This document shows, one piece after another, positions 3,594 through 22,119 of a DNA stretch of 22,119 nucleotides (its first letter is position 1; the number at the start of each line of letters is the position of its first letter). Both the position numbers and the translations under genes were made by a program. Location: IMG/VR virus record IMGVR_UViG_3300025326_000222, positions 1-22,119 of that record. The stretch is one strand, 5' to 3'. The notes under the pieces are model-generated. The model saw only the letters and a list, made by a program, of their open reading frames with translations, did no database searches and was not told the origin of the DNA. Origin of the DNA: a virus.

Positions 3594-5888
3594 ATGCCTA
3601 CGCAGGATATGAATGTGCCGTCCCTGCTGGGCGGTGTAAGTACAGTGAGCCAGAATGGACGGGCTCCCCATGAAACTACTGCCCAAGAGAATGTAGAGTT
3701 GTATCCCGACAAGGGTTGCGATAAGCGGCCCGGCACAGAGATCATCCTGGGAGAAGGCCCAGTAGGGGAACTTGATATGGATCAGGTCATTCCTGTCGCA
3801 GATCGTTTAGATGCCTATGTGTTCTGGATCAATCGTGGTCCCGATGAACAATTCTTGGTAATTGTGGACCCAAACTTGGATGATGATGGAATCATTCAAG
3901 CATTTAATCTGGAAGACGGCACTAAGGTTGCTGTATTCGATGCGAATGGCGATCCATTAGGCGATGCGGCCAGCGATAATCTTCGTGCCTACATTACGGC
4001 CGGGGCTGGAACTGCTGATGCCCGTTTACTGTTGCGGCATCTGACGGTGGAGGATAGTACTTTTATCCTCAACCGTAGTGTGCCTACGGCTCTCAAAGGC
4101 ACGGGCATTGCATATGAAACCTCGGTTGGGCAGTTCCTTCGCTTCAAGGCTAATGCGCATAACGTGACGGCCTGGAGCGATTTTGACCAGCCGCCCACTG
4201 GCACAGCCCCAATTCCTACATTTGTAGACGATGGAATGACTGTGACTAATGCTAACTACTGGTATGCCCAGGATGATGATGTGGGTTTGCCGGGCGGCTT
4301 CTATGCCGCTGTATCAACCACAGTTCCTCCTTGGTATACACGAACTGTGACCGAGGGTGCAAACTCTTGGGTTGATGAGAAAACCATGCCAATCCGTATG
4401 GACTGGAATGGCACAGAGTTCCGGGTCCAGTTTGTTGATTGGACTCCCCGCCAAAGCGGAGATTCCTTCACTAATCCCGGCCCCTCATTCATCGGCAATC
4501 CGATCAGCGACTTTGTGTTCGCTGCGGGACGCCTTTGGTTCTTTAGCGGTGAACGCATCGTATCTACTCGCCTGGATGATATCACCAACCTGTGGATCAG
4601 AAGTGTGGTTCTTCAGACCGAGAGAGACCCGATCGACACTAACCTTCGTGGCGCACGGTTCGCCTCTATTGACTTTGCCACTACATTCCGAGAGGCCATC
4701 ATTCTTCTAACCAATGGCTCACGGGAAGTGGAAATTCGGGCCAATGGTCCCATCACTCCGCAGACGGTACAACTATTTGACTCTGCGGCAGTGGAGTCTG
4801 TGAACTACTGTAGTCCTGCCCAACTTGGCGGCTCGCTATACTTTTTAGGAGAGCGAGATTTCGCCAATATTGTGTGGGAGTACTTCTACCTTGAACAGGC
4901 CGTAGCCAACCAAGCTTTCGATATCACTAACCGCGTTCATGGTTATATCCCGGCGGCATCCAGCCGCATCACCGCATCCGGCTCTACTGAGCAGTTATTC
5001 ATTATCACTGATGCTGACCCATCAATGATCTATGTGAACCGTTCCGCTTGGCAGGGACAGAATAAGGTGATGAACTCCTGGTATCGTTGGGAGTTTCAGG
5101 GTCTAGATGACAACTCCACTCGCACGATCCTAAGCATGGAGCCAGTTGGAGACTTTCTGTTCATTCTCTTTCAACACCAGGCAGGACTCTTCCTGGAGAA
5201 GATGGCTATTGGTGAACCCACTCAGGATACCGATGGTACTCCCGTACAGACTCTTGGCTATGCGTTGCGCATAGATCGGAAGTTTAAAGTACAGGGAGTA
5301 TATGATCTCATCACTGACACAACCTCTTGGACTGTTCCATTTAAGGATGCGTTCCTGGATGAGGTTGTGCTGGCAGCTACCTGGGATACGGCTGATGAAA
5401 AGGCAGCAGGTACTCGCCTCTCTGGTTTGGCGGTCGAAGTTATTGGTGATGAAACGATCATCACTATTGATGGAGATTGGACTGTCAATGAGGACAATGA
5501 TCCCGCTCCCGCCTATGTGGGACGCTCCTTCGAGGCTGCCATCACCCTAAGCGAGTTATTTGTCCGCGATTCACAAGGCCGTCCCGTGTATGGGAATATG
5601 TCCCTGCTTCGCGGGCGTATTCGCCATAGGGATGCTTCTTACTACTTCATCGAGATTACTCCTCCAGGTAGAGAAGCACTCAAACATGAATTCTTTGTAC
5701 CGTTTATTGGTTCTACACCACTGGACGGCGATCAACTGGAGCCTTATGGAGAGTTTCAGTTCCGGCTCTTGGCGCCGTCTCACAACACGGTGATTCGGAT
5801 TGTCAATGACTCGCCTTACCCTGCGGCTTGGATTGACCTGGACTTTCGTGTTCGGCTCAATTCTTCCGCTTACTCGTCGATCAAGTAA
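3594..5888 (+). CDS. Tail tubular protein B (nozzle, T7 gp12-like)
   Basis: 764 residues; T7 gp12 has 794. The N-terminus (VPSLLGGVSTVSQNGRAPHETTAQENVELYPDKGCDKRPGTE spread over residues 8-49) follows the family pattern of a short loop, GG(I/V)S, an arrangement of Q and N, and a final KRPG. The remainder is beta-rich, as expected for the nozzle propeller, with segments such as RLWFFSGERIVSTR near residue 308. The C-terminus contains a membrane-free beta domain with aromatic residues. Ribosome-binding site GGAAGG lies at 3581-3586. Gene order A then B, and the ejection proteins downstream, agree with T7. Confidence 0.88.
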   Translation: MPTQDMNVPSLLGGVSTVSQNGRAPHETTAQENVELYPDKGCDKRPGTEIILGEGPVGELDMDQVIPVADRLDAYVFWINRGPDEQFLVIVDPNLDDDGIIQAFNLEDGTKVAVFDANGDPLGDAASDNLRAYITAGAGTADARLLLRHLTVEDSTFILNRSVPTALKGTGIAYETSVGQFLRFKANAHNVTAWSDFDQPPTGTAPIPTFVDDGMTVTNANYWYAQDDDVGLPGGFYAAVSTTVPPWYTRTVTEGANSWVDEKTMPIRMDWNGTEFRVQFVDWTPRQSGDSFTNPGPSFIGNPISDFVFAAGRLWFFSGERIVSTRLDDITNLWIRSVVLQTERDPIDTNLRGARFASIDFATTFREAIILLTNGSREVEIRANGPITPQTVQLFDSAAVESVNYCSPAQLGGSLYFLGERDFANIVWEYFYLEQAVANQAFDITNRVHGYIPAASSRITASGSTEQLFIITDADPSMIYVNRSAWQGQNKVMNSWYRWEFQGLDDNSTRTILSMEPVGDFLFILFQHQAGLFLEKMAIGEPTQDTDGTPVQTLGYALRIDRKFKVQGVYDLITDTTSWTVPFKDAFLDEVVLAATWDTADEKAAGTRLSGLAVEVIGDETIITIDGDWTVNEDNDPAPAYVGRSFEAAITLSELFVRDSQGRPVYGNMSLLRGRIRHRDASYYFIEITPPGREALKHEFFVPFIGSTPLDGDQLEPYGEFQFRLLAPSHNTVIRIVNDSPYPAAWIDLDFRVRLNSSAYSSIK

Positions 5889-6577: not shown

Positions 6578-9489
6578 TGCCGCGAGAAGCGCCTACTAAT
6601 GTGCCCCGTGGCGTAGGATCGGCCGAGCCTGACTGGTCCCCGCCCAAGGTGGCGGTGGCCACGCCGGGGCTTACTATACAGCCTGAGCCCACTCAGTTTG
6701 AGAAGCTCAGAGCCGCAGTCCTTAGCATCGGTCAAGGAGCCGTGACGGGCCTTCAAGCCCAGGCACAGATTCAGGGGAATCTGGATCGCCTGAGACAGCG
6801 GGCTCTCAACGAATCTGACCAAGCGCTTCGGGGAGCCGAGGAAAGTATCCAGGCAGAGCGCATCAATTCCGTGAAGCGTGATATGCTAGCCATTCAGGTA
6901 GAGGGCGAAGATAAAGGCCCTGCCTGGATGGCACAAACGTCCCGCACCAAACTTGCTAATGCGGCATCGCTGCAAGAGCAGGAGATGTGGACCCGCATGT
7001 ACGTTGCCGCCAGCGGTGCGGCTAAGCAGAATGCCGCTGAGGCAGAGCGCGACCAAGAGATGCGAATCCGCCAGCAGTATGCACTCTCAACGCATACTGC
7101 CCATAACATCGCCTTACAAGCCGAGCAGGAAATTTCCTTACAACCAGAATTGCAGCAGGAACTGATCGGCAGCGGTACGGGTATTCATACGAGAGTGCAG
7201 GATTATCTCCTTGCAGAGATAGTGGCTGCAACGCCTGACGCGCTCATTATCAATAGAGATGATCCAAATGCCGAAGCCCGGAGAACGCAGCGCGACTTGC
7301 TTGTTGCCGCAATCACCGGGTATGGTATGAAGATTTCTGATGGTCTTGTCAATCAGTTCTCCAAAGGAAGAGATCAACTTTCTTTCCAGCGGGGTATCCA
7401 TCAAGTTGATGCTGATTTGTTCGACTTCATGACAAAGGATGGTAATCTCGATCAGTTCATGGAATCTACTGGGGCTACATTCGATGAGAACTTTACCCAC
7501 ATGACTGAACCTGAGAAAGCCGAGACCATGAAGAAGCGTGTCCTCGAAACCATGCAGTTAGCTGCCCAAGGGCAATTCCCTGGCAGGATGGCTAATATGT
7601 TGGAGAGAGGACAAACTTTACTCAACATGGAGATTGATGGACAGCCAGTATTCACTGATGCTGAGAAGGCGGGTCTTGTGGGCACAATGCTTGACGAGTC
7701 CCGCAAGACGGCGCAGGAACGACTGGGGGCTGAGATCGGGGCCTTGCTTCGACAACAGGTAATCCCGCTCTCCGATTCGGAAGGCAATTATACCTTCACC
7801 CCGGACCCGAATGGCCTTAGTACCCTGGCCCAGCCCGGCGTCAACGGTTTATCTGCCATTGACCGGGCTGCCAATAAGGTGCTCATGGATATGGGTTTCC
7901 TCGACAAGTCCCCATCTGACCTTCGGCCCGATGAGAATTTGATCGTAGAATCTGTCATGATTCGGGCCAGTGAGATGCAGAGTTCTGCCCGCTCTCAGGC
8001 CGTAACAGAGTCCCGCAAGGTTCAGAACTATACCGGAGTAATGACCGGAAGACCCGGCGGGAATCTGAATGATGCCTATGATACCGCGCCTCTTACGGCG
8101 GCGTGGGAGGGCCGGGCTGTAACTGCCTCACAGGCGGCGATGAATAAGCGGCTCGTCACGGCCTATGCTTCGGCTCAGGGTGGTATACCAGAGTCGATCC
8201 GGCAGTGGAATGGTGGCACTATCCCGGAGAGTACTCCAGAGAACCGGCCCTTGAGGGATGCCATTCTCGCCGTAGAGGCGCAGCAGTGGACCCGACCCGA
8301 AGTGGCCAAAGAGTATGGACTGCCGAAGGGTATCATTGATCGTATGTTCCGAGAGTTTACATCGGGCGATCCTGAATCCTTCCATGATGCGTTACAATTT
8401 GCTACTCATGTTCGCAGCGGGGCTAAACTCGAAGACTTGATCCAGGCCATGAACGAGAATGGCACGGAGATCGGCGCCGCGCTTCACTATGCAGTGGCGG
8501 CACAGAATGGACTCCTGGGACAGGGAGTAAAGCTAGACGAAGAGACGATTGCACAGAATGTGCAGGCTATCCTCTCGGCGGGCTCTCTGACCAAGTTCCT
8601 TGAGGCCCAGTCGCCATTTGCCACATCAGGCACCGGCTACTCTAATAATCGCATCATCCTTACTTCGGTGATCCAGGCACTTAGAGCAGCCGAACCAAGC
8701 ATGTTCGATCTGGCTGATCCCTTAGCTGAGGTTGATGGGCGCCCTCTTGGCGAGAGAGAAATTGAGGCTATCTTCCGTCAAGGGATGGCCGATGGTAATA
8801 ACATGGTGACGGCAGTGCAGCAAATGGGTGCTTCTATTATGGCTACTCATCCAGATGCGACTGTGGAAACCATGGGTTCTATGCTGTACTCTTATCTCAA
8901 TGCAGTGGGAGTTAGCATGCACCTGATTGGGAATCGGGTTGTCGGTATTGAAGACCCGCAAAAGCATCTTCCTGGTCACTTGAAGGATATCCCTTCCGTG
9001 GCAAGGGAGTGGACTCAGCGGGCCTATGACGCCCCAACCCGCGACCTTATCCAACGTGTAATGGGTATGGACCCGAAAGATGTTCCGGTAAACCTTGCTG
9101 ATTGGTATCAGCGAGCATACCCGGATATCTTTGTAAGCCATACCTGGGATGGTATGAATTGGGACATCTCCAATGGCTTTACCCCGGCTGGTGCCGAATC
9201 TTTGCACCGCCCGGCTTCGGCCCTTGGGGGTTTGCCCATTACGGCCCGGCGTCCTGTTGACGGTACGCCACTGCCGATGATCCGTACCAGGGTTGAGACA
9301 TTCCTGCCTCAACCCGATGGGACCGTCATTCATGTCCCTGCCGGGACACCAATTACTGCGCTTTCACAGCACTACCAACCCGCTCTGCTGGCCGAATCTA
9401 CGGAGAGCCGAAGCAATATGGAAGAGATTCTCTTCCGGGCTGAGGCAGGAGCATTCGCTCCGATTCTCGATAAGCTCTTTGGCCGCTGA
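6577..9489 (+). CDS. Internal virion protein (T7 gp15-like ejection core protein)
   Basis: 970 residues, longer than T7 gp15 (747). It begins with a TAATG overlap, and GGGAGGG at 6564-6570 lies in front. The N-terminal 60 residues are proline-rich. Residues 60-500 are strongly helical, rich in Q, A, E and R, with a clear coiled-coil look (IQGNLDRLRQRALNES, AAEAERDQEMRIRQQYA). The protein contains EPEKAETMKKRVLETM near residue 310 and many helices typical of ejection proteins. I see no signal peptide and no transglycosylase motif. In T7, gp15 and gp16 form a tube across the periplasm during DNA entry. The call is by order, length and composition. Confidence 0.72.
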   Translation: MPREAPTNVPRGVGSAEPDWSPPKVAVATPGLTIQPEPTQFEKLRAAVLSIGQGAVTGLQAQAQIQGNLDRLRQRALNESDQALRGAEESIQAERINSVKRDMLAIQVEGEDKGPAWMAQTSRTKLANAASLQEQEMWTRMYVAASGAAKQNAAEAERDQEMRIRQQYALSTHTAHNIALQAEQEISLQPELQQELIGSGTGIHTRVQDYLLAEIVAATPDALIINRDDPNAEARRTQRDLLVAAITGYGMKISDGLVNQFSKGRDQLSFQRGIHQVDADLFDFMTKDGNLDQFMESTGATFDENFTHMTEPEKAETMKKRVLETMQLAAQGQFPGRMANMLERGQTLLNMEIDGQPVFTDAEKAGLVGTMLDESRKTAQERLGAEIGALLRQQVIPLSDSEGNYTFTPDPNGLSTLAQPGVNGLSAIDRAANKVLMDMGFLDKSPSDLRPDENLIVESVMIRASEMQSSARSQAVTESRKVQNYTGVMTGRPGGNLNDAYDTAPLTAAWEGRAVTASQAAMNKRLVTAYASAQGGIPESIRQWNGGTIPESTPENRPLRDAILAVEAQQWTRPEVAKEYGLPKGIIDRMFREFTSGDPESFHDALQFATHVRSGAKLEDLIQAMNENGTEIGAALHYAVAAQNGLLGQGVKLDEETIAQNVQAILSAGSLTKFLEAQSPFATSGTGYSNNRIILTSVIQALRAAEPSMFDLADPLAEVDGRPLGEREIEAIFRQGMADGNNMVTAVQQMGASIMATHPDATVETMGSMLYSYLNAVGVSMHLIGNRVVGIEDPQKHLPGHLKDIPSVAREWTQRAYDAPTRDLIQRVMGMDPKDVPVNLADWYQRAYPDIFVSHTWDGMNWDISNGFTPAGAESLHRPASALGGLPITARRPVDGTPLPMIRTRVETFLPQPDGTVIHVPAGTPITALSQHYQPALLAESTESRSNMEEILFRAEAGAFAPILDKLFGR

Positions 9490-16607: not shown

Positions 16608-16917
16608 GAATGAAGAGTTCATTCCTGACTATGCCGATCTAGAGAAGTTATGGGATGATGAAATTGAGAATGCTCCGATCGAGGGCATGTCACCTGAGAA
16701 TCTGGAATCCCTGGTTCATGAGTTGACGGCCCGGCGGCTGGTGGAGGCGCTCCGTGACCCGGAGCGCTCCACTCCCGGTATGCTGCAAGCTGCACTTCGG
16801 TTCCTCAAGGATAATGACATTACTGGATTGCCCATTCCTGGATCGGCTCATGCCAAACTCAAAGAGAAGCTAGGAGGGAAGCTTCCCTTCACTCCCCGAT
16901 TGACAGGAACTGAATAA
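16600..16917 (+). CDS. Terminase small subunit (T7 gp18-like)
   Basis: 105 residues; T7 gp18 has 89. The N-terminus is acidic. The core reads LVHELTARRLVEALRDPE, then STPGMLQAALRFLKDNDITGLPIPGSA (residues 58-84), matching the T7-type small terminase pattern of a helix, a short break, then (A)L.FLKDN.I. The subunit recognises phage DNA and hands it to the large subunit for cutting and packaging. Its ATG lies inside the preceding gene (8-base overlap), and its TAA shares a base with the ATG of the large subunit (TAATG), so the two are probably made together. Confidence 0.88.
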   Translation: MIENEEFIPDYADLEKLWDDEIENAPIEGMSPENLESLVHELTARRLVEALRDPERSTPGMLQAALRFLKDNDITGLPIPGSAHAKLKEKLGGKLPFTPRLTGTE

Positions 16918-18740
16918 TGGCACGGATGCTAGAAAGGTTATTGGCGGATCACTATAGGATGGTGGATAACCCGAAGTGTGAGGATTATGATCCATTCAAG
17001 GCTGACTTCCGCAACTTCCTGTACTATGTATTCAAAGAAGTCCTCAAGTTCGGGGAGCCGCATGCACTCCAATACGATATTGCCGATTACATGCAGAATC
17101 TTCCCGTCTCACAGGATGGAACGGCTCGCGGTCAGGCTCAGGCCATGCGCGGCTGCGGCAAGACCGTAATTGCCTGCGCATTCTGCGCTTGGCTGTGGTA
17201 TTGTAATCCGACGATCCGTGCTTTGGTGGTTTCGTCTGTACAGACGAAGGCTGAGGAGTTTGCGGGCCTTGTAAAGCAGATTGTGGACTCCGCGGCGCTC
17301 CTAGAGCATCTTCGACCCAACATTCAGGTCGATCAACTCAAACATGGTAAGCGGCGACTCAAGGTTGACCAGAATACCTTAGCACGGTTTGATATAGCCG
17401 GTGCTGGGCCGGGGAAAGACCCGTCCTTTGCCGCCTATGGAGTTTACGGAGGCTATACAGGCAGTCACCCGGATATTATCATCCCGGATGACGTAGAAAT
17501 TCCCGAAAACTCCCTTACCCAACTCAAACGAGAGCGTTTGTTCAACAAGATGCAGGAGTTCGAGTCGCTGATCCTCAAGGGAGGGGCAATTCTCCAGATG
17601 GGGACGCCTCAAACCGAGGAATCGGTTTACAACAAGTCCGAGAAGGTCGGATATCCTGTCCGAAAGTGGCCAGCAGAGCTTCCTGACTTGACGAAGGATG
17701 AGGATTTGGGACATTACACTCCTTACATCATCACTCTGACCAAGCACAAGGGTTCTGGCTCCCCAACTTACCCGGAACGCTTCCCCATTGAATCCCTCAT
17801 GGAGAAGCGGGCGAAAGGTGAAGCGTACTATAGACTCCAGATGCTTCTTGACACAAGCCTCGCTGACCTGGATCGATATCCGCTCAAGACTAGAAACTTG
17901 ATCGTGTTAGATCAGGACTTCGAGCACGGCCCTGTCTCGGTTATTTGGGGCACGGCGTCTCCGTTAAAGGAGATCGAGAACGCTGGACTCACAGGGGACT
18001 GCTTCTATGGGCCGGGCTATCAATCCCCGGACTACGAGCCGTTTCAGGGCGGTGTCATGTACATCGACCCCAAGGGCGGCGGCGGTGACACAGTGGGATA
18101 CGGCGTGGCCAAGACCCTACGGGGTTTGATCTACGTTCCGGCCGCAGGAGGTCTTGCGGTGGGTGCAGGCGAGCACGGCACGGCCGAGGCGGTACTTGTC
18201 AAGCTCGCCAAGATCGCGGCCCAGTGGGGCGTCAAGCGAGTGCAGGTTGAATCCAACTGGGGCGGTTCCAAGGAAGAGTCCGCTTATGCCCGACTCTTGC
18301 AGCCGATCATGGCCAAGTACAACGGACCAACTCAGATTGAGACGGTCTGGAATACCGGCCAAAAGGAACGGCGCATCCTGGATGACCTGGAGCCGTTAGT
18401 CAACATGCATAAGGTCATTGTGAGTCGTGAGGTCGCCAGACGTACCGAGTTGATGTATCAGTTGACTCATATTACCCGTGAACGTGGTAGCCTGATTCAT
18501 GATGACGAGATCGAGGCCCTTTGGGGTGCGGTTAGGAACTACAAAGACAACTGCGTTATGGACTCTGAGACTGCGGCGGCCATGAAGTCCGAGCAGGCCA
18601 GCCGTGAGGCGGCCAAAGAGTTCGAGCGCGAGTACCATAAGTCTGCGGGAGGCGCCGCCTTCCACAAGGAGGATGAATGGAAAGAGATCAAGAGACGAGC
18701 AGCGAAGATCGACCGAAAGAGGCGATGGACAAGAGTGTAG
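16917..18740 (+). CDS. Terminase large subunit (T7 gp19-like packaging ATPase and nuclease)
   Basis: 607 residues; T7 gp19 has 586. ATPase: Walker A-type MRGCGKT at 77-83, Walker B DIIIPDDVE at 186-194, and a coupling motif MGTPQ at 228-232. Nuclease (RNase H fold): the three acidic sites are D384 in MYIDPKGGGGD, E445 in VQVESNWG and D529/D530 in HDDEIEALWGAV, all as in T7 gp19. The enzyme pumps DNA into the prohead and cuts the concatemer. The C-terminus is highly basic (KRRAAKIDRKRRWTRV). All catalytic residues appear intact. The gene overlaps a possible 31-residue gene at its 3' end. Confidence 0.95.
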   Translation: MARMLERLLADHYRMVDNPKCEDYDPFKADFRNFLYYVFKEVLKFGEPHALQYDIADYMQNLPVSQDGTARGQAQAMRGCGKTVIACAFCAWLWYCNPTIRALVVSSVQTKAEEFAGLVKQIVDSAALLEHLRPNIQVDQLKHGKRRLKVDQNTLARFDIAGAGPGKDPSFAAYGVYGGYTGSHPDIIIPDDVEIPENSLTQLKRERLFNKMQEFESLILKGGAILQMGTPQTEESVYNKSEKVGYPVRKWPAELPDLTKDEDLGHYTPYIITLTKHKGSGSPTYPERFPIESLMEKRAKGEAYYRLQMLLDTSLADLDRYPLKTRNLIVLDQDFEHGPVSVIWGTASPLKEIENAGLTGDCFYGPGYQSPDYEPFQGGVMYIDPKGGGGDTVGYGVAKTLRGLIYVPAAGGLAVGAGEHGTAEAVLVKLAKIAAQWGVKRVQVESNWGGSKEESAYARLLQPIMAKYNGPTQIETVWNTGQKERRILDDLEPLVNMHKVIVSREVARRTELMYQLTHITRERGSLIHDDEIEALWGAVRNYKDNCVMDSETAAAMKSEQASREAAKEFEREYHKSAGGAAFHKEDEWKEIKRRAAKIDRKRRWTRV

Positions 18741-19915: not shown

Positions 19916-19925
19916 CGGCGGGCTT

Positions 19926-19963
19926 GCCCCAGGAGGCCAGGATTAGTTCCTACCTCCTGGGGC
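19926..19963 (+). terminator. Strong hairpin at the end of the late genes, possible terminator
   Basis: GCCCCAGGAGG (19926-19936) pairs perfectly with CCTCCTGGGGC (19953-19963), and AGGA/TCCT (19939-19942 with 19948-19951) extends it inward around a five-base loop. It lies ten bases after the last late gene, the usual place for a terminator. No T tract follows, so it may instead block 3' decay or be processed. Confidence 0.4.
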
Positions 19964-20181
19964 CTGGGTGGAAGCTAGGAACGCCTCCAGGTGGCAATCC
20001 ACTGACGTTCCTATGAGGGTGGTGCTGTGCCGCCCTCGCCGGATGGACCGGTTCGGCTGGGCATGTACCAATCGGGTGAGAAATAGTACATATCTGATTC
20101 TAAATGGAGGGATAGGTAATGTAGGATGATGGGGCAAACTGGGAACATTGGGTATGGCCGGGTACTGAGGTAGATTGGGTA

Positions 20182-20221
20182 ATATTCACTGAATAGGGCA
20201 TCTTCACCGCGCAGTGAATAT
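20182..20221. repeat. Perfect 10-bp inverted repeat
   Basis: ATATTCACTG (20182-20191) and CAGTGAATAT (20212-20221) are exact reverse complements around a 20-base loop. The arms are AT-rich in a GC-rich gap. No T tract follows, so it does not look like a terminator; an operator, cruciform or RNA hairpin are all possible. Confidence 0.75.
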
Positions 20222-20358
20222 CGACTGGGGGTGGTACGCCGGGAGTGAGGGTGCGCCCCGTCCGATAACCATGGAATCCCCCCGTACCCCCCGGTCAAGC
20301 ATTATCGGACCCGGCACGGGCCGCCCCAGGGTGGGTTATTATCGGACTCTCCGCAGGT

Positions 20359-20448
20359 CGCATAGCCTACCCACACGGTACAGGCCCACCTGTTGCCGGG
20401 CGATAACCGGGTGCGGACCTTGACAGGGCAAGGACCGTATGCTATGCG
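20359..20448 (+). other. Branched inverted-repeat element (RNA-junction-like)
   Basis: An outer stem CGCATAGC/GCTATGCG (20359-20366 with 20441-20448) and a second stem ACGGT/ACCGT (20375-20379 with 20434-20438) enclose three small hairpins: ACAGG/CCTGT with a CCCA loop (20380-20393), CCGG/CCGG (20396-20411 area) and CCTTG/CAAGG (20418-20433). The nesting is tidy, as in a multi-way RNA junction, though each small stem could arise by chance. It is not a tRNA: no GTTCRA arm or acceptor pairing fits. Confidence 0.4.
20420..20448 (+). promoter_or_regulatory. Sigma70-type promoter candidate facing the structured region
   Basis: TTGACA (20420-20425, perfect -35) is followed by exactly 17 bases and TATGCG (20443-20448). 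The -10 matches only three of six consensus bases but has an extended TG one base before it (20440-20441). Transcription would start near 20455 and run through the structured region toward the gene at 21443. The same bases belong to the branched inverted-repeat element, so the match could be incidental. Confidence 0.35.
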
Positions 20449-20467
20449 GGGAGGTCGGTCTGTGCGG

Positions 20468-20524
20468 GCGGGCCTGAGGCGGTTATGGGGCCTTTGCCTG
20501 CGTTTTTCTTCGCCTCAGGCTTGC
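20468..20524 (+). repeat. 14-bp hairpin at the 5' end of the structured region
   Basis: GCGGGCCTGAGGCG (20468-20481) pairs with CGCCTCAGGCTTGC (20511-20524), ten perfect pairs plus two G-U and two G-C pairs. The 29-base loop contains TTTTTCTT at 20503-20510. If the transcript starts near 20455, this would be its first hairpin. Confidence 0.75.
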
Positions 20525-20934
20525 ATGCCGTCCACCATATGCCATACTATGTTTGCCTACCATGCGGGGTGACCCGCCGGGAGCACGACGGACGGCCAGT
20601 ACGGGCAGGGACAACGCCAACCTACACCCGGAATGTCGCGAGTCGCCCGGTCACAGGACGGATCGCTAACGTAGGGGCTCGCGGGAGCCGACAACTATAT
20701 CGGACCACCGGGACCGAGCTAAAAACCACCCGAACGGACAACGCGTTGCGTAGTCACGACGGAATGGGAAGGAGCCGGACCCAAGCGGGTAAACGCAGTC
20801 CATTGCACGTCCGATAGAGCGTACTAAGTCAGGGGACGAAAGCTAGCGATGCGGGATATGCAAACGTCGCCGCATAATACTGCTGATAACTAACCTGACG
20901 AGCTAGGCTGAACATGCCACGGAACATCGCCTAA

Positions 20935-21238
20935 GCACACTGTACGATAAGCCCAATCGACTTGACTATGCGGTAAGGTAGACCGTGTGTCAATAGGTTA
21001 GGATCGCAGGAGCTAATAACTCTCAACCGCGAACCGAAGCCGTCCGACTCTCGGCTAAGGGCACGACAAGACTACGTGAGTAGAGCTATACGGCCCGGAT
21101 AAAGGAACCGACGCCCAGCGTGAGCTGTAAGTGTACGATCTGCCGACCACGGCTCAACCGAAACCGCCGTCTATCTTACCGCATAGTCTTGGGAGTCGAT
21201 CCTCTGAGAAGCGGTAAGACCGTAGGGCATAAGTGTGC
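20935..21238 (+). repeat. Long-range arm with a 20-bp helix
   Basis: GACTATGCGGTAAGGTAGAC (20964-20983) pairs with GTCTATCTTACCGCATAGTC (21169-21188): 19 Watson-Crick pairs and one G-U. Across a one-by-five internal loop, ATCGACT (20956-20962) pairs with AGTCGAT (21194-21200). Further out, GCCC/GGGC (20951-20954 with 21225-21228) and GCACACT/AGTGTGC (20935-20941 with 21232-21238) can continue the arm. It encloses a 185-base domain with small hairpins, among them AGCCG/CGGCT (21038-21056), CTAC-GTGA-GTAG (21072-21083), ACGC/GCGT (21111-21121) and GCCG/CGGC (21142-21153). The outer pairs are weaker evidence than the 20-bp core. Confidence 0.85.
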
Positions 21239-21335
21239 GTGGACGCGGAGACAACCGACGTAAACAGATATAACAAACACCGTAGCCGAACGAAACCCTG
21301 ATAGGTGGGCTGTTCGGTCACACTACGGAGATCAC

Positions 21336-21403
21336 GGTCAACCTCCCCGGCCATGAGCGAAAGCTTGTGGCCGGTCTTATAGGTTGGCCAACGTGGTCAA
21401 CCT
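21336..21403 (+). promoter_or_regulatory. Switch-like element: two identical strands competing for one partner
   Basis: GGTCAACCT occurs at 21336-21344 and again at 21395-21403. Between them, AGGTTGGCC (21381-21389) can pair with the first copy (nine pairs, one G-U, enclosing the GAAA-capped 12-bp hairpin at 21347-21374) or, as GGTTGGCCA, with the second (21382-21390 with 21394-21402, nine pairs, three-base loop). The two folds exclude each other. The element ends 40 bases before the start of the 126-aa gene. No T tract follows, so it is not a plain terminator. Confidence 0.55.
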
Positions 21404-21419
21404 ACTTCGCAACAGTACC

Positions 21420-21445
21420 CATATCAATGAAGGAGCATATCAATG
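21420..21445 (+). repeat. 10-bp direct repeat around the ribosome-binding site
   Basis: CATATCAATG occurs at 21420-21429 and 21436-21445, with the Shine-Dalgarno sequence AAGGAG (21430-21435) exactly between. The second copy contains the start codon at 21443. The first supplies another ATG (21427) that opens a nine-codon frame, MKEHINAWY, ending at TGA 21454-21456, overlapping the true start in another frame. Confidence 0.8.
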
Positions 21446-21823
21446 CTTGGTACTGAGAATCCTGTGGTTGTCCCGTCCGTCGAGCACGCAAAGGCTCTCG
21501 CTGGCATCTACGGTCGCCTTCATGGTGCCGTGGCTGCAAGCCGCAAGGCAAGCACTGCTCTCAAGCAGGCTTGGGCAAAGGGTCTTGACGTGGTGGCTGA
21601 TGCCCGTGTCATTCGCACGGGTGCCATGCAGAAGCTCGATCTCATCATGGATGAGTCGTGGACGGCACTGCTCGCTCTGCCTCGCGGCACTACTGCCCGT
21701 GGTGGTGCGACCCCGCAGACGGTTGCCTTGGAGTACTTCTCCAGCAACCTGAACCGTGATCTCAAGGCCCGCATCACTGCCGCGGATGCCCGCAAGATCA
21801 ACGGTCGCTCGTTCGTCGTCTAA
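21443..21823 (+). CDS. Unknown 126-aa protein downstream of the structured region
   Basis: ATG 21443 with AAGGAG seven bases before it. The protein is helical and basic: VEHAKALAGIYGRLHGAVAASRKASTALKQAWAKGL (residues 13-48), then a segment with DLIMDESWTALLAL (66-79) and a short C-terminal helix ending RSFVV. No signal, membrane segment or known motif. Codon choice is biased: all seven lysines are AAG and arginines are CGC or CGT, like the capsid gene end and unlike the terminase, which also uses AGA and AGG. That suggests strong expression. It is the first gene after the gap, so it could be the first early gene of the phage or a partner of the structured RNA; both are inference. Confidence 0.85.
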   Translation: MLGTENPVVVPSVEHAKALAGIYGRLHGAVAASRKASTALKQAWAKGLDVVADARVIRTGAMQKLDLIMDESWTALLALPRGTTARGGATPQTVALEYFSSNLNRDLKARITAADARKINGRSFVV

Positions 21824-21848
21824 TCGGAGACGGCAACCCACCCCGAAT

Positions 21849-21877
21849 GCCCAAAGCTGAAAGGCTTGGGCTTTCAT
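21849..21877 (+). terminator. GAAA-capped hairpin followed by TTTCAT, probable terminator
   Basis: GCCC (21849-21852) pairs with GGGC (21868-21871), and AAGCT/GGCTT (21854-21858 with 21863-21867) continues the stem after one bulged A, closed by GAAA. TTTCATT follows. It lies 26 bases after the 126-aa gene. The T run is short, so termination may be partial. Confidence 0.6.
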
Positions 21878-21879
21878 TC

Positions 21880-21942
21880 CCTTGGTTCCAAGGTACCTAC
21901 ATAATCCGCACGCGGGATTGTGTAATGATATACAGCGTGCGG
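21880..21942. repeat. Two further hairpins in the intergenic leader
   Basis: CCTTGG/CCAAGG (21880-21885 with 21888-21893) is a near palindrome. CCGCACGC/GCGTGCGG (21906-21913 with 21935-21942) pairs perfectly over eight bases; AATCC/GGATT (21903-21907 with 21915-21919) is an alternative using the same bases. Confidence 0.5.
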
Positions 21943-21975
21943 CCACCTACCCTTAGCGGGGTAGGGGCCTTTCAT
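21941..21975 (+). terminator. 11-bp hairpin followed by TTTCAT, possible second terminator
   Basis: GGCC (21941-21944) pairs with GGCC (21966-21969) and CCTACCC (21946-21952) with GGGTAGG (21959-21965), with one bulged A and a six-base loop. TTTCATT follows, exactly as after the hairpin at 21849-21871. Confidence 0.5.
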
Positions 21976-21981
21976 TAGTGT

Positions 21982-22077
21982 CCATCCTTAGATGGCACTG
22001 GGATCGCATTCGCAATCTGTAAATATATGCGGTACGGCCTTAGCCAAAGTCCGCAATGACGAATGCGGTCCTTTCAT
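21982..22077. other. Nested hairpins ending in a third CTTTCAT
   Basis: CCATC-CTTA-GATGG (21982-21995) is a small perfect hairpin. CGCATTCG/CGAATGCG (22005-22012 with 22060-22067) encloses TGCGG/CCGCA (22028-22032 with 22051-22055) and GGC-CTTA-GCC (22036-22045 area). CTTTCAT follows at 22071-22077. No gene is present here. Confidence 0.5.
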
Positions 22078-22099
22078 GTCGGCCCATGCTGGTGCCGAC
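22078..22099 (+). promoter_or_regulatory. Leader hairpin just before the next ribosome-binding site
   Basis: GTCGGCCCA (22078-22086) pairs with TGGTGCCGAC (22090-22099): nine pairs with one bulged T and a three-base loop. It stands 12 bases upstream of the ribosome-binding site at 22111-22117, so it could protect or control the next mRNA. Confidence 0.5.
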
Positions 22100-22110
22100 C
22101 TGTACCCTCA

Positions 22111-22117
22111 TAAGGAG
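22111..22117 (+). promoter_or_regulatory. Ribosome-binding site of a gene starting beyond the window
   Basis: TAAGGAG followed by AT at the window's last bases is the same sequence that precedes the gene at 16046 (TAAGGAGAT). The coding region should begin within a few bases of the right edge. Confidence 0.65.
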
Positions 22118-22119
22118 AT

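Follow-up and report, generated by a model that had tools for sequence, protein, structure and literature searches.

In relatives of the T7-like phage studied here, the gene-free stretch before the first early gene encodes a plus-strand RNA whose fold is conserved over its full length. The phage itself is known from the window, by which we mean the entire virus record of 22,119 bases, and its own stretch very probably encodes some kind of structured RNA with a conserved fold as well. The original prediction had placed a large structured non-coding RNA in a T7-like phage; plus-strand structure in two sister groups of relatives, with controls, and a T7-type polymerase bear this out, while its placement had to be refined to the early end and its excess of A turned out not to be general.

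The gene order of the window is T7-like, with tail families phrog_446 and phrog_457, long proteins of the type found after this pair in T7-like genomes, a possible tail fibre gene (the match is weak), and then the small and large terminase subunits. The large terminase, 50-53% identical to those of L001, L002 and L086 and about 40% to that of L003, is the last large late gene upstream of the RNA locus. It is followed by three small open reading frames, a non-coding stretch at 19916-21442 and a gene for a 126-aa protein. As a partial contig the window ends before the position of the RNA polymerase gene, and the polymerase is seen in the relatives only: a T7-type RNA polymerase (PF00940) was present in four of the five relatives searched, downstream in the early region. 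The T7-type (Autographivirus) assignment thus combines the terminase and tail order of the window with the single-subunit RNA polymerase of the relatives. The original prediction described the locus as lying next to the packaging genes; it does follow the terminase block, but because the preceding gene is late and the following gene early, we assign it to the left (early) end, before the first early gene. The elements along the window are as follows.

16917..18740, plus strand: large terminase subunit (T7 gp19 type; phrog_38, E 3e-86)
20220..20232, plus strand: single-copy box ATCGACTGGGGGT, the sole exact copy in the window, which opens the non-coding left end
20260..20347: three TTATCGGAC repeats, at 20260-20268 (minus), 20302-20310 (plus) and 20339-20347 (plus)
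20414..20448, plus strand: promoter-like element CGGACCTTGACA-N17-TATGCG (TTGACA-N17-TATGCG at 20420-20448), with a predicted start near 20455
20455..21380, plus strand: predicted extent of the structured non-coding RNA (no open reading frame beyond chance, fold z -4, structure conserved in syntenic relatives)
20468..20524, plus strand: 5' hairpin GCGGGCCTGAGGCGG / TCGCCTCAGGCTTGC, a 15-bp helix
20955..21200, plus strand: domain closed by a 20-bp stem (20964-20983 / 21169-21188), in common with L003 7160-7335
20991..21002, plus strand: CAATAGGTTAGG, also at L003 7194-7205
21153..21165, plus strand: CTCAACCGAAACC, also at L003 7291-7303
21347..21380, plus strand: terminator-like GC hairpin with a GAAA loop (CCGGCCATGAGC-GAAA-GCTTGTGGCCGG at 21347-21374) and a TCTTAT tail
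21380..21404, plus strand: second hairpin TAGGTTGGCCA / TGGTCAACCTA, read from the sequence
21443..21823, plus strand: first early gene, 126 aa, family unassigned by Pfam/PHROG, with homologues in five relatives

The stretch does not look like coding sequence. The longest stop-free run in the six frames of 20455-21405 is 120 codons, compared with a median of 122 in shuffled sequence, so that the earlier view that it lacks a believable reading frame holds; moreover, the members of the relatives' group differ from each other by many indels. The base counts made by hand for 20581-21360 (A 220, T 119) were exact on recount, and the AT skew of 0.298 there is the maximum of the contig (mean 0.004, sd 0.082). 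In L002, L083 and L084 this excess is absent (A 14-15%, T 18-19%), and therefore it is not a property of the class.

Relatives were gathered via the terminase, the 126-aa protein and the RNA polymerase. Seven related phage genomes (L003, L086, L002, L083, L084, L216 and G023) have 650-1000 nt of non-coding sequence in the same place; L090, identical to L089 over its own length, was left out of the member count. They share one order: TTATCGGAC repeats come first, then the gene-free 650-1000 nt, then a terminator-like GC hairpin whose tail is U-rich, and finally the first early gene. A nucleotide search of annotated phages and of the relatives gave no useful match, no close relative of the window RNA was present in the collections searched, and the sequences of the different groups are not alignable end to end. 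Local alignment between groups with lenient gap costs gave weak support at best and was not used as evidence. The DNA pattern CAATAGGTTAGG N0-6 CGCNG had 30 matches, with the second motif downstream only in the already known L003, and the pattern CCGTTGCAACCGCATCGG yielded, beyond the known members, short chance matches only. The two ends of the 44,230-base contig of G023 (L298, L299) overlap within the RNA locus by about 48 nt, one of them mismatched, and this assembly appears to be circular across the left end. Two more distantly related T7-like phages, with about 35% RNA polymerase identity, have long left-end gaps that end in structured, partly A-rich sequence (L255 3249-4495 and L259 3840-4655, fold z -3.2 and -1.8); these are possibly further members and are not claimed as such.

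Several short elements recur at the left end of these genomes. L086, L216 and G023 each have a single copy of the ATCGACTGGGGGT box at the corresponding position, that of G023 altered at one base; the box is a candidate packaging or concatemer-junction site or phage promoter. In the five relatives checked, the TTATCGGAC repeats are confined to the left-end place, with no copies elsewhere. Arrays of this type lie at L002 14140-14720, L083 1-560, L086 5700-6160 and L216 4220-4440, in some phages in both orientations; located at the genome junction, they resemble the short repeats of the T7 left end, from which they differ in sequence. The element CGGACCTTGAC is common to the window, L003, L083, L084 and (with one change) L002, where it opens the stretch in the same place, and a longer version, GTTCTCGGACCTTGAC, is exact in L003, L083 and L084. 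L003, alone among the relatives, has a tRNA-Glu (CTC) gene upstream of the repeats and the RNA (6632-6704), about 350 nt upstream of its CGGACCTTGAC element. The promoter-like element of the window has a weak -10 and the consensus promoter scan made no call there.

At the other edge, terminator-like hairpins are found in L086 (CCGGGGGGGTC-GAAA-GATCCCCCCGG TTATTC), L003 (CCGGCCCGGTG...CATCGGGCCGG TTTCTTTC), L002 (GCCATCGGTGCC...GGCGTCGGTGGC TTTTG) and L216 (ATGGGCATCGG-GAAA-CCGGTGCTCAT GTTTTTAT), the last with a counterpart in G023 (GTGGGCATCGG...CCGATGCTCAC GCTTTTAT) in which the end pair is compensated. The tail of the window hairpin holds too few U for the consensus terminator scan. The predicted edges of the RNA are nevertheless sensible, in that a start at 20455 would fit the promoter-like element and an end at 21380 the terminator-like hairpin. 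Behind the 126-aa gene, at window positions 21824-22119, strong hairpins again follow one another (fold z -5.2), some with U-rich ends, and the early region may hold further small structured RNAs or leaders.

The conserved structure itself was established in the relatives. The loci of L002, L083 and L084 were aligned over 785 columns, with indels, at pairwise identities of about 70-81% (by BLAST, L002 is 81% and 77% identical to L083 and L084). Their consensus fold comprises 237 pairs, 35 of them with compensated changes, at an energy of -309 versus -234 ± 7.6 in column shuffles that preserve local conservation. This corresponds to a z of -9.8 on the plus strand and -4.4 on the minus strand (-10.2 and -3.9 in a repeat run), and the number of compensated pairs was 22.8 ± 3.0 in shuffles, with a maximum of 30 over 40 of these. 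In a held-out test, in which two sequences predicted the structure of the third, 51 of 58 double changes kept the pair, counted as sites and not as independent events; by sequence, 19/19, 20/22 and 12/17 of the changes on both sides still paired. When the partners in single-sequence structures were slid by two columns as a control, pairing was kept in 59 of 211 cases. L216 and G023, an independent pair alignable at 86%, gave a z of -6.7 on the plus strand and -3.3 on the minus strand; GACCG..GGUC / GCCGG..CGGC and GGCACGACU..GGUCGUGUC / GACAUGGCC..GGUCAUGUC are examples of its compensated hairpins. Early genes and the RNA polymerase gene of the same phages, taken as coding controls, reached only -0.9 and -1.5 on the plus strand and about -2 on the minus strand. 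Single-sequence fold z values were unremarkable for L086 and L084.

In the relatives, compensatory changes as expected of a large structured phage non-coding RNA thus extend over several hundred nucleotides. The homologous gaps after the terminase, where the original prediction had looked to covariation for a decision, do carry compensated pairing, in both L002/L083/L084 and L216/G023. Given the conserved-structure z values, the held-out pairing and the weak controls, we therefore conclude that this locus encodes a conserved plus-strand RNA; that the stretch of the relatives represents some form of conserved structured RNA, whatever its task, is highly probable.

The RNA is mosaic in the L002/L083/L084 group. 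About 160 nt are identical in L002 and L083 where L084 is 60% identical; elsewhere it is L083 that departs from a sequence common to L002 and L084, and the last domain is near-identical in the latter two. In the RNA of L216 a direct repeat, GTCGCACCGTGCAAGCCGTGCCAC, occurs at about 4898-4921 and 5027-5050; the second copy in G023 differs by 2 bases.

Folded on its own, the plus strand of the non-coding stretch in the window gave z values of -4.05 and -4.19 against dinucleotide shuffles in two runs, and the minus strand -2.66 and -3.11. We regard this single-sequence signal as only moderate, because coding controls from the same contig reach down to -2.8 on the plus strand. The helices and GNRA loops described originally are real: the 20-bp helix 20964-20983 / 21169-21188, with one G-U pair, is far beyond chance, a GAAA loop caps the hairpin at 21347-21374 and a further GNRA loop lies in GGGTGACCC near 20568. 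The long stem, of 20 bp in the window, has a counterpart of 21 perfect pairs in L003, and the stem sequences of the two are unrelated, whereas just within the stem CAATAGGTTAGG and CTCAACCGAAACC are identical in both. Independent folds of the window and L003 gave the same core, consisting of the long stem, a GGUU/AACC helix and a first hairpin UUAGG..CCGAAG, whose tip can pair as GGAG..CUCU in the window and GGUAG..CUACU in L003; the fold z of the domain is -4.7 and -5.7. A long stem retained with a wholly different sequence is, as read from these two genomes, the outcome expected of selection on pairing. The domain lies about 580 nt from the promoter element in the window and about 140 nt in L003, and therefore domains move. 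Placement and this common domain tie the window to the RNA class of the relatives, to which it presumably belongs.

No known RNA family accounts for the locus. Rfam covariance models (GOLLD and ROOL included) gave no match to the window at gathering score and none above chance at E <= 5, which upholds the statement that the stretch fits no known class; in L001-L003, L083, L084, L086, L216, G023, L255 and L259, only tRNAs scored above gathering. The motif GGTTTGGATTCGACG in L002 suggested a tmRNA, which was rejected since no tmRNA call was obtained and L083 does not retain the motif. GOLLD (RF01998) is a phage-carried RNA of at least about 800 nt with an elaborate structure, a varying sequence, a variable 5' part and an unknown function, and ROOL (RF03087), also large and ornate at about 660 nt, is carried by phages or prophages and has no known protein partner (PMC12286853). 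The original analogy with these RNAs is apt in style, as the RNA described here is likewise phage-borne, large and ornate, with structure conserved while sequence varies, yet it does not extend to any sequence or model match. Moreover, no tRNA was found in or beside the window RNA, which also has no tRNA island nearby such as would suit ROOL and lies in a T7-type early region; and expression of GOLLD rises at lysis, whereas the window RNA sits at the early end. As the covariance models fail and the tRNA neighbourhood is missing, the RNA is not filed under either, nor does it belong to another Rfam family. Our searches of the open-access literature turned up no account of a large RNA located at the left end of T7-like phages.

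What such an RNA would do has to be judged from its surroundings. A promoter-like element, a structured body and a terminator-like end together outline a transcription unit, at the place where transcription of a T7-like genome by host polymerase begins. The gene that follows is kept in L003, L086, L002, L083 and L084 at 39-54% identity; its protein was assigned no family by Pfam and PHROG searches, had no match in annotated phages or prokaryote genomes by protein search, and has an all-helical AlphaFold model for which a fold search gave no match at E<=0.001. It is absent from G023/G025, and L216 and G023 have an unrelated first early gene while keeping the terminase and the polymerase. This swap of the following gene argues for an RNA with a job of its own and not a leader tied to one gene, and on that argument we lean, without great assurance, towards a free early plus-strand RNA of about 0.9 kb that would act in trans, its promoter, transcript, ends and trans action being inferred. 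As the phage enters, host RNA polymerase would start the RNA at the predicted TTGACA-type promoter (20420), the transcript would end mostly at the hairpin before 21380, and the folded RNA would work early in infection, alone or with proteins, with host transcription, translation or defence as candidate targets.

The main rival to this free RNA is an early leader acting in cis, either by binding host RNA polymerase or as a hairpin switch that controls read-through of the terminator. The stretch does have the first promoter-like element on one side and the early operon on the other, every group shows a terminator-like hairpin just ahead of its first gene, and the 5' arm of the second hairpin (21381-21389) has two competing partners, 21394-21404 or GGTCAACCT at 21337-21345, which could serve such a switch. 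Precedent exists in the put RNA of HK022, a structured RNA at the start of a phage early transcript that acts on the early genes in cis (PMC9378689). The put RNA acts on the polymerase that made it, whereas the structure in the window is about 0.9 kb long and ends in a terminator-like hairpin. Put RNA is also about ten times smaller than the window RNA, and activity of that type requires small hairpins only, while here structure spans the whole 700-1000 nt and the downstream gene is exchanged; we therefore consider a cis-acting leader unlikely, though worth keeping in mind.

Readings in which the structure is incidental, or belongs to the DNA, are less likely still, given the strength, length and strand specificity of the structure signal. 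T7 itself has terminase, repeats, host-type promoters, a leader and the first early gene in this arrangement (A1-A3, R0.3), with 924 non-coding bases upstream of gene 0.3, and the annotation of T7M includes an RNase III stem-loop, R0.3. Long left-end gaps also occur in cultured relatives, and RNase III could act on long perfect stems, so that the locus could be an ordinary left end made up of a terminal repeat, short repeats and host promoters, together with a leader processed by RNase III. Only about 430 nt separate A1 from gene 0.3, however, and the T7 leader, RNase III stem included, has a conserved-structure z of -3.4 to -4.3, compared with -10 across the whole stretch in the relatives; in S2B the gap is only about 400 nt, and in a Limnohabitans phage repeats make up most of it, a promoter-like element being found only about 180 nt upstream of the first gene. 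This makes an ordinary left end quite improbable. Inverted repeats of a packaging or concatemer-junction site, a replication origin or cruciforms could mimic helices too, and the location at the genome junction beside the terminase, with TTATCGGAC arrays just upstream, would suit such an element. The repeats are mostly outside the RNA, though, the plus-strand signal far exceeds that of the minus strand and G-U pairs are kept on the plus strand in the relatives' structure, and we give a DNA-level element very little credence.

Known RNAs of this size are very few, and the functions of those from phages (GOLLD, ROOL) are unsolved. More tentatively than the free early RNA as such, we put forward a new class of giant phage RNA that would be made first on infection by host polymerase, fold into a large particle, act in trans on the host and evolve by exchange of whole structural domains; as part of that same tentative reading, phages with 50% identical terminases would keep the place of the RNA and not its sequence. 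The locus would add a further large RNA, unrelated to GOLLD and ROOL, at the position where T7-like phages place their first transcript and their anti-host functions. A small phage with a single such locus would offer a simple genetic setting for testing what a giant phage RNA is for, and the non-coding left ends of T7-like phages merit annotation for RNA.
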